DNA of 64,000 nucleotides, taken from contig JAHDWN010000010.1 in assembly GCA_023382675.1 (NCBI GenBank), positions 41,118 to 105,117 of the forward strand, given 5' to 3'. Positions 55,899-58,848 of this stretch are shown one piece after another. Within the stretch, counting starts at the first letter, position 1. Every line of letters begins with the position of its first letter. The notes under the pieces are model-generated. The model had not been told where the DNA came from, did not search any database, and saw only the letters and a program-made list of their open reading frames with translations. Position numbers and translations under genes: made by a program. This DNA comes from Anaerolineae bacterium (lineage in GTDB: Bacteria > Chloroflexota > Anaerolineae > Aggregatilineales > Phototrophicaceae).

Positions 55899-56029
55899 TA
55901 TTCACCTGTCACTGAATACGCAGTTGTCCCGGCCAGCGTTGCAGGGTTGGATGGTTGTGTTCAGATGCCCCACATAGGATAGCGTGCGGGTCGCCTCGTC
56001 CGGTTTGGCATTGATTGACACCCCCTGTC

Positions 56030-56038
56030 TGCTATAAT
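56030..56038 (+). promoter_or_regulatory. Extended -10 promoter of rpsO
   Basis: TGCTATAAT: an extended -10 (TGn-TATAAT) upstream of rpsO by about 80 nt. A TTGATT hexamer lies 16 nt upstream and could serve as -35. Confidence 0.6.
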
Positions 56039-56116: not shown

Positions 56117-56386
56117 ATGAGTCTCACGAAGAACGAGAAGAACACCATCATTTCCAAGTACGGTCGGCATCAGGGCGATACCGGTTCGCCGGAAGTTCAA
56201 ATCGCACTGCTTACCACCCGTATCCACCAGTTGACCGAGCATCTCAAGCAGCATCCGCAGGACCAGCATTCGAAGGTTGGTCTGCTCAAGCTCGTCGGCG
56301 CGCGTCGGCGTCATCTGCGCTATCTCGCCAAGACGAATGCGGACGGCTATCATCAGATTCTGCAAGACCTCGGTCTGCGTAAATAA
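56117..56386 (+). CDS. rpsO: 30S ribosomal protein S15
   Basis: Binds 16S rRNA helices 20-22 early in 30S assembly. The 89 residues show [61 protein letters not shown], all typical. The track ORF begins upstream at 56015; ATG 56117 is the family start and has AAGGG 10 nt upstream. Its 5' leader is about 80 nt, so autogenous control as in other bacteria is possible. Confidence 0.98.
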
Positions 56387-56399
56387 GTCGGACATACAA

Positions 56400-56419
56400 G
56401 GGTGTCGAACTGGACACCC
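56400..56419 (+). terminator. Hairpin between rpsO and pnp
   Basis: GGGTGTC / GACACCC (7-bp stem, loop GAACTG) 13 nt after the rpsO stop, followed by GTTTGTGTGTTT. It may terminate some rpsO transcripts or stabilise the 3' end; T-run content is moderate. Confidence 0.55.
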
Positions 56420-56438: not shown

Positions 56439-56519
56439 AACGCCCGGCAGCGCAGAGATTGGCAAGCCTTGCTAAACGTGCTTTTGGCGCGGCTTGCCAG
56501 TCGCTGGGTGTCGGGCGTT
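56439..56519 (+). promoter_or_regulatory. Long three-helix leader hairpin before pnp
   Basis: Three nested perfect helices: AACGCCCG/CGGGCGTT, CAGCG/CGCTG, and GGCAAGCC/GGCTTGCC, in nested order across 81 nt. It ends 39 nt before the pnp ATG. In E. coli the pnp leader folds into a long stem-loop cut by RNase III, after which PNPase represses its own message; this structure fits that mechanism by shape and place. Confidence 0.6.
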
Positions 56520-56558
56520 GTCTTTGTCGCCAAATTCGAGACAACAAGGAGATAACAC

Positions 56559-58790
56559 ATGTCTACTGAGACGAGCATGGACAACGTCCACCGGTATGTC
56601 GTGCAACTCGGCGGTCAGGAATTGATCATCGAAACGGGCAAGTTTGCCGAACAGGCCGGCGGCGCAGTCACTGTTCAGGTAGGGCAGACGGTCGTTTTTG
56701 CCACTGCCACGATGAGCAAGTCCGCCCGCGAAGGGATCGATTTCTTCCCACTCAGCGTCGATTACGAAGAGAAACTCTATGCCGCCGGGCGCATTCCCGG
56801 AAGCTATTTCCGCCGTGAAGGCCGGCCATCCGAGAGCGCGATCTTGATTTCGCGTGTCGTTGACCGCCCGCTGCGCCCACTTTTCCCGGAATACATGCGT
56901 AACGAGGTCCAAATCATCTTCTCGGCGCTCAGCCACGACCAGGAAAACCAGGTCGATATGATCGGCATTATCGCTGCCAGCACTGCGCTCATGATCAGCG
57001 ATATCCCCTGGGAAGGGCCTGTTGCTGCCGTGCGCATCGGCCTGATTGACGGTGAGTTCGTGGTCAACCCGACCATCCCGCAGATGGAAGACAGCATCCT
57101 CGATCTGCGCGTGGCGGGCACTGCCGATGCCATCAACATGGTCGAATGCGCGGCGGTCGAGATCGACGAAGAAACGATGATCCGGGCGCTGATGTTTGCC
57201 CACGAAACGATGCAGCCGATCATCGAACTGCAGAAGCAGATCGCGGCGGAGATTGGCAAGACGAAGTCCGAATTCATCAGCAGCCAGATCGATGAGTCCG
57301 TCGAGACTCAGGTGGCTGAACGCGCGCGTGAGACTGTGCGCCAGGCATTGATCGAGACGACTGACCGCACGGAGCGCAACGAACGCCTCGACGCCATCCG
57401 TGATGAACTGCTCGCTGCTTTTGAAGCTCAAAATGCGACGCTCTCTGAGGGCCAGACTCCTGTCGAAGCCAAGGCGGTCAAGCAGGCCTTCGATGACGTC
57501 ATCTACGAAGAAGTGCGCCGCCGCATTGTCAGCGATGGTGTGCGGCCCGATGGCCGCGATTACACGACCATTCGCCCGCTGGCGGCGGAGGTCGGCATCA
57601 TCCCGCGTGTGCATGGCTCCGGCCTGTTCAAGCGCGGGCAGACCCAGGTGATGACGATTGCGACGCTCGGCACGCCGCGCGATGCGCAGTCGATTGAGAC
57701 CGTCAGCCCGGAAGAATCGCGCCGCTACATGCACCACTACAACTTCCCGCCCTACAGCACCGGCGAAACGTCGCCGCTGCGTGGTCCCAAGCGTCGCGAG
57801 ATCGGCCATGGTGCGCTGGCGGAAGCTGCTCTGCGCGCGATGATCCCGTCCGAGGACAAGTTCCCCTACACGATCCGCCTCGTCAGCGAAGTGCTCAGCT
57901 CCAACGGCAGCACGTCGATGGCGAGCGTCTGCGGCAGCACCCTGGCATTGATGGACGCGGGCGTACCGATTGTGCGCCCGGTCGCCGGTATCGCCATGGG
58001 ACTGGTCAAAGAAGGCGATCAGATGGCCGTCCTGACCGACATTCAAGGTCTTGAAGATCACCTTGGCGACATGGACTTCAAGGTCGCAGGGACGGAGCAG
58101 GGCATCACGGCCTTGCAGATGGACATCAAGATCAAGGGCGTGAGCGAGGACGTGCTGCGCAAGGCGCTCGCCCAGGCGAAGGATGCGCGTATGCAAATCC
58201 TCGAACTGATCCTCAACACGATCGCGGAACCGCGCGCCGAAATCAGCGAATTTGCCCCTCGTATGACGAGCATCAAGATCAACCCCGAAAAGATCGGCGC
58301 GGTGATTGGCCCCGGCGGCAAGGTCATTCGTGGCATTCAGGATCGTACTGGCGTCAAGATCGACATCCAGGAAGACGGCACGGTCTTCGTCGCGGGCGTC
58401 GACGGTGCAACTGTTGCGCTCGCCATCGATGAGATACGCGGTCTGACGGAGGACCTTGAAGTCGGGCGCATCTATACGGGCAAAGTGACACGCATCGAAT
58501 CTTACGGCGCGTTCGTCGAAATCATGCCCGGCAAAGAAGGCATGGTACACATTTCGCAGCTTGCCGATTACCGTGTCAACCGCGTCGAGGACGAAGTTCA
58601 GGTCGGCGACGAGGTCATGGTTATGGTCACCGATGTTGATCCCGGCGGACGTGTGCGTCTCAGCCGCCAGGCAGTTCTAGCCGGCTGGACGGCTGAAGAA
58701 GCGCGTGAGCGTGATCGTCGCCCACCGAGCGGCGGCGGTGATCGTCGCGGCGGCGGTGATCGCCGTGGCGGTTACGGCGGTCGTCGCTAG
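56559..58790 (+). CDS. pnp: Polyribonucleotide nucleotidyltransferase (PNPase)
   Basis: 3'-5' phosphorolytic exoribonuclease. The 743 residues carry two RNase PH domains (about 10-220 with [31 protein letters not shown], and about 320-560 with [35 protein letters not shown]), an intervening helical domain, a KH domain ([20 protein letters not shown], about 590), and an S1 domain ([21 protein letters not shown], about 648). The C-terminus ends in an Arg/Gly-rich repeat [21 protein letters not shown] at ATG 56559. Downstream of rpsO as in many bacteria. Confidence 0.98.
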
Positions 58791-58811: not shown

Positions 58812-58848
58812 AAAACGGGCGGTACATGTGTATCGCCCGTTTTGATTT
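58812..58848. terminator. Bidirectional terminator between pnp and the anti-sigma gene
   Basis: AAAACGGGCG / CGCCCGTTTT with an inner TAC/GTA pair around ATGT, then GATTTT. On the minus strand the same hairpin is followed by TTTTTATG, so it serves both converging genes. Confidence 0.85.

Follow-up and report, generated by a model that had tools for sequence, protein, structure and literature searches.

Polynucleotide phosphorylase (PNPase) is a central RNA-decay enzyme, and control of its gene, pnp, through a hairpin is already known in E. coli, where the cut leader lets PNPase repress its own production, and in actinomycetes. In E. coli, the spacer between rpsO and pnp contains a pnp promoter, and processing of the leader hairpin by RNase III matters for pnp expression (PMC5872136). 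In Streptomyces coelicolor, RNase III cuts the rpsO-pnp intergenic hairpin at an internal loop (PMC10126417), features of which have been proposed to set the cut site; PNPase rises 2-4-fold when RNase III is absent (PMC10126417; PMC5872136). Actinomycetes also have a described RNA family at this place, the Actino-pnp RNA (Rfam RF01688; Weinberg et al. 2010, PMC2864571).

Here we analyse a hairpin in the rpsO-pnp interval of an Anaerolineae bacterium of the phylum Chloroflexota, found in a 64-kb stretch of DNA that was examined as a whole (the window). It shares with the E. coli pnp leader a long duplex, placed after the rpsO terminator and before pnp. As in S. coelicolor, an rpsO terminator is followed by an intergenic hairpin in which an internal loop is a key feature. 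S. coelicolor differs in having two promoters in the spacer and an internal loop of the [4/4] type; in the Chloroflexota element the loop is a 1x1 mismatch next to a fixed U·G wobble. The nearest known kind is Actino-pnp, which also lies between rpsO and pnp and is likewise a hairpin conserved in sequence and interrupted by small symmetric internal loops. The two differ in phylum and in their cores, GGUCCUCGGUAGUGG ... CUUCGAUCGAAGACC in Actino-pnp versus CAGGNAUUGG ... CCAGUNCCUG in Chloroflexota. In design the Actino-pnp loci (L395-L414) resemble the Chloroflexota element: a G·U wobble and several 1x1 mismatches are kept, but the bases are different.

Model searches in both directions, with a positive control, led us to reject membership in Actino-pnp. 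The RF01688 model, which found Actino-pnp in 57 of 60 sampled actinomycete genomes, gave no match at the pnp locus of 41 Chloroflexota genomes (cut-off 47.7 bits), and the window leader had none even with E values up to 10 admitted. In the other direction, our model R2 matched none of 20 Actino-pnp loci, and R3 matched none of 98 actinomycete genomes. R2 also had no match in the rpsO-pnp region of E. coli K-12 (NC_000913) at E up to 10, although a model of this sort detects its own kind only and could miss a very distant homologue. No Rfam 15 family reached its gathering threshold in the window; the window leader, searched at E up to 10, gave only chance-type matches, mostly to microRNA precursors, and nothing relevant was found in searches of the relatives against Rfam. 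A search of the open-access literature found no paper on a Chloroflexota pnp element. We rate the element as a new RNA family of the pnp-leader hairpin kind, with an unusual core that is near-invariant and double-stranded.

Results

Folded as plus-strand RNA, positions 56439-56519 form a single long hairpin of 81 nt and 34 pairs (-57.2 kcal/mol, z = -7.75), and none of 200 shuffled sequences was as stable. When 12,784 segments of 81 nt were taken from both strands of the window at 10-nt steps, this site ranked first in stability (-55.2 versus -46.5 for the runner-up). The fold, a covariance model match of 75.2 bits and covariation together identify it as a conserved pnp-leader hairpin. The first-pass annotation had seen three nested perfect helices in these 81 nt. 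Three uninterrupted helices are indeed present on the plus strand, of 11 bp (helix 1, 56439-56449/56509-56519), 12 bp (helix 2, 56457-56468/56491-56502) and 7 bp (helix 3, 56470-56476/56483-56489), but they are perfect only when wobbles are allowed, several of the pairs being G·U. A short piece of 4 pairs lies between helices 1 and 2, and single mismatches also part the helices.

The placement between rpsO and pnp given at first pass was correct: the hairpin is flanked by the plus-strand open reading frames of rpsO (ribosomal protein S15, 56117-56386) and pnp (743 aa, 56559-58790). It ends about 40 nt 5′ of the pnp start codon, and the window fold leaves the pnp ribosome-binding site (AAGGAG, 56546-56551, plus strand) outside. 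In nearly all relatives examined rpsO precedes pnp. The PNPase encoded in the window carries a Gly/Arg-rich tail after the S1 domain at its C-terminal end (58717-58790), and a strong terminator-like inverted repeat, AAAACGGGCG...CGCCCGTTTT, lies 3′ of pnp (58812-58843).

A promoter-like site, TTGATT-16-TATAAT with a TG (56011-56038, plus strand), lies before rpsO; with 10 of 12 matches in a scan for the consensus only, it is likely the operon promoter. Between the rpsO stop codon and the hairpin the consensus scan showed no sigma-70-like site, in contrast to the E. coli spacer with its pnp promoter; one weak site lies within rpsO. After rpsO stands a terminator-like hairpin with a T-rich tail, GGGTGTC-GAACTG-GACACCC (56400-56419, plus strand). 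Similar T-tailed hairpins were found in 11 of 45 spacers of the family, compared with 0.2% in shuffles; in several relatives, hairpins of the GGATGTC...GACATCC type stand just 5′ of the element. Since the terminator-like hairpin lies upstream of the element and the sole good promoter-like site precedes rpsO, the element is probably transcribed within the rpsO-pnp readthrough message.

This arrangement bears on whether the element is itself an intrinsic terminator or attenuator before pnp, a reading that its GC-rich stem might invite. Counted generously, elements with a U-rich stretch close to the base of the stem on its 3′ side number from 12 of 65 to 20 of 73. The U run after the stem, however, is missing in the window and in most relatives, a separate terminator-like hairpin already stands upstream, and a terminator does not require a conserved core. 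We rejected termination as the function of the element, and regard it as very improbable.

In the family, pnp is closely matched in 96 of 98 genomes. To follow the element there, we compared rpsO-pnp spacers. The motif CAGG-N-ATTGG ... CCAGT-N-CCTG was present in 45 spacers, and these 45 elements gave an alignment and the covariance model R1. The alignment supports 30 pairs, which are formed in 91% of cells; 24 of them show changes on both sides. The cells with two-sided changes numbered 124, versus 39 in shuffles, a value that none of 500 shuffles reached. In the class-wide alignment A3 there were 401 such cells versus 145 in shuffles, and 85% of cells were paired, versus 46% and 48% when the structure was slid by one column; the phylum-wide alignment gave 444 versus 164. 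As a control for relatedness, compensatory changes were counted in disjoint pairs of nearest relatives. They numbered 36, 104 and 94 in the family, class and phylum alignments, where slid structures gave no more than 6, 25 and 22, and thus exceed what chance and shared ancestry would give. The first-pass annotation had suggested a conserved pnp-leader element in a phylum distant from E. coli and had named a lack of covariation in orthologous leaders as the refuting outcome; covariation is clearly present at all three levels.

In the family alignment, paired columns with the fixed wobble left out held 101 G·U cells and 20 A·C cells. The sense-strand RNA is therefore the folded molecule. The same excess stands against a palindromic element acting at the DNA level, whether a REP- or MITE-like repeat or a DNA palindrome bound by a protein. 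The element is near-palindromic, and the model scores the reverse strand too, as such an element would lead one to expect. Yet the hairpin sequence is single-copy in the whole 6.4-Mb genome, the locus is constant across the phylum, and those non-pnp matches that were examined are mostly simple inverted repeats lacking the mismatch. With no further copies in the genome, a repeat or mobile element was rejected, and we give this reading hardly any credence.

Covariation is heavy in the outer and apical stems, and the apical part is very variable in length among the class loci while the core is nearly constant. The core helix has the consensus CAGG-A-AUUGG / CCAGU-C-CCUG, in which the U·G wobble is almost invariant and a 1x1 mismatch is retained (alignments A1, A3 and A4). 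In the window, its 5′ strand is CAGAGATTGG (56453-56462, plus strand; consensus CAGG-A-ATTGG) and its 3′ strand CCAGTCGCTG (56497-56506, plus strand; consensus CCAGT-C-CCTG). The wobble is U56459·G56500, and the mismatch, A56456 x G56503, is shifted one position outward of its consensus place, so the window copy is a slightly shifted variant of the core. In classes outside Anaerolineae, compensating changes turn the lower core pairs CAGG/CCUG into UAGG/CCUA or UCGG/CCGA, but the AUUGG/CCAGU part and its U·G wobble are unchanged. The mismatch persists with other bases, A x C being replaced by G x G, A x G or G x A. A standard pair occupies its place in only 4 of 65 sequences, and in three of these, the genome of the window included, the mismatch has instead moved one step sideways. 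The element is thus kept by selection on its pairing and on a near-invariant core.

A core whose two strands are both near-invariant, whose wobble is fixed and whose mismatch is retained resembles a specific recognition site. The operon's two products, PNPase and S15, would be candidate ligands in a scheme without cutting, in which the core would be bound by PNPase, by means of its KH/S1 domains, or by S15, or else by a dsRNA-binding protein particular to the lineage, with direct control of pnp translation or stability as the result. We consider such an operator unlikely, although it deserves more weight than termination or a DNA-level repeat: the hairpin fold does not enclose the pnp ribosome-binding site, the distance from the element to pnp ranges from about 0 to more than 400 nt, and the Rfam S15 leader model does not match the element. 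The S15 leader (RF00114) belongs to the same operon but lies at the start of rpsO, not in the pnp leader. We observed a sub-threshold RF00114 match of 25.6 bits at the rpsO start of one relative (L106:342-457), and none in the window.

Searches with R1 found the element in 55 of the 98 family genomes, 10 of them outside the set from which the model was built, and comparison of coordinates placed these matches at the pnp leader. In the class, a covariance model matched 219 of 396 genomes. Among 77 class loci that were searched again, 72 adjoin pnp and are correctly oriented to it, rpsO lying upstream in most; the remaining five comprise one at a contig end (L169) and four without pnp, two of which are second matches in genomes whose other match is at pnp. 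In a phylum sample of 400 genomes, R2 found the element in 68 and R3 in 89. The R3 matches include 44 genomes from other classes, among them G782, whose match is a perfect inverted repeat without pnp; the contexts checked in the other classes were rpsO-pnp save for a few weak matches. Nearly all matches whose surroundings were checked thus lie just 5′ of pnp, the rest being accounted for by contig ends or chance palindromes. Further copies distant from pnp (in G535, G697, G444 and others) were rejected as simple palindromic repeats in which the mismatch is missing. In some Chloroflexota, long palindromic arrays of the GGGTTGGGG or GGAGATTGGAGA type (L438-L441, L443, L444-L446) mimic the model without the mismatch.

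Beyond the phylum, we scanned one genome per species for the exact pattern and obtained at least 119 loci, with titles for 80. Among these 80 named matches listed, 62 adjoin pnp, and their titles assign them to Chloroflexota, apart from one that reads just "bacterium"; the other 18 come from other phyla, and none of the 18 has pnp nearby. We took the latter as chance and rejected an occurrence outside Chloroflexota among the matches listed.

Within the phylum the element is not universal. Two members of the window's own genus (L022 in G029 and L033 in G025) have a nearly identical rpsO-pnp spacer of 51 nt without the element, which has apparently been lost or replaced there. In genus g22 (L060-L099), 34 genomes lack it save for a weak match in G062, although pnp is kept, and the g22 spacers inspected contain no consistently stable structure in its place. 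The element is therefore dispensable in some lineages.

These data also bear on a simpler role, that of a stability or processing hairpin at the 3′ end of rpsO or the 5′ end of pnp, cut or guarded by another RNase (Y, J or E/G) and having no part in PNPase feedback. The position between two co-oriented genes would suit this role, as would the terminator-like hairpin that rpsO owns in part of the genomes. Plain stability, however, needs neither a fixed core, nor a retained mismatch, nor an exclusive link to pnp, and we judge it improbable.

Discussion

The exclusive association with pnp, the covariation and the conserved core point to the hairpin being a specific control site for PNPase production. 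By analogy with E. coli and Streptomyces, the best explanation, which we consider probable though far from assured, is that the element is a cis-acting RNA of the rpsO-pnp transcript and that its cutting by RNase III limits the level of PNPase. In such a scheme the rpsO promoter would drive both rpsO and pnp, some transcripts terminating after rpsO. RNase III would then cut the long duplex, guided by the core with its mismatch and wobble, which would part the rpsO and pnp messages and leave a short paired leader end on the pnp mRNA. When PNPase is plentiful, it would attack this paired end and so destabilise the pnp message, the net effect being that PNPase is held at a set level. RNase III is encoded in all 31 genomes tested, and a duplex of about 30 bp offers ample length to this enzyme.

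RNase III usually needs little sequence, so RNase III alone does not explain some 10 near-invariant bases per strand. This near-fixed core sequence is the most interesting point beyond the analogy with E. coli and Streptomyces. We tentatively put forward, as a possibility with the odds against it, that the element is a phylum-wide operator whose core, GG-N-AUUG / CAGU-N-CC, is read base by base by a protein, and that hairpin control of pnp has arisen or been rebuilt at least three times. The core might be read by an RNase III whose sequence specificity in Chloroflexota is unusual, or by a distinct regulator that binds dsRNA. If this proposal is true, there would have been at least three origins or rebuilds with new recognition sequences, in gamma-Proteobacteria, Actinomycetota and Chloroflexota.

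The near-invariant duplex core with its mismatch allows a direct test of whether RNase III or another protein reads the sequence of a duplex. From the Chloroflexota alignments a new Rfam family could be modelled directly, and they can serve to annotate a phylum with few studied regulatory RNAs. To the hairpins of E. coli and the actinomycetes is now added a third, deeply conserved in Chloroflexota and with no detectable sequence relation to them, which suggests that a processing hairpin in the rpsO-pnp interval is a solution that recurs.
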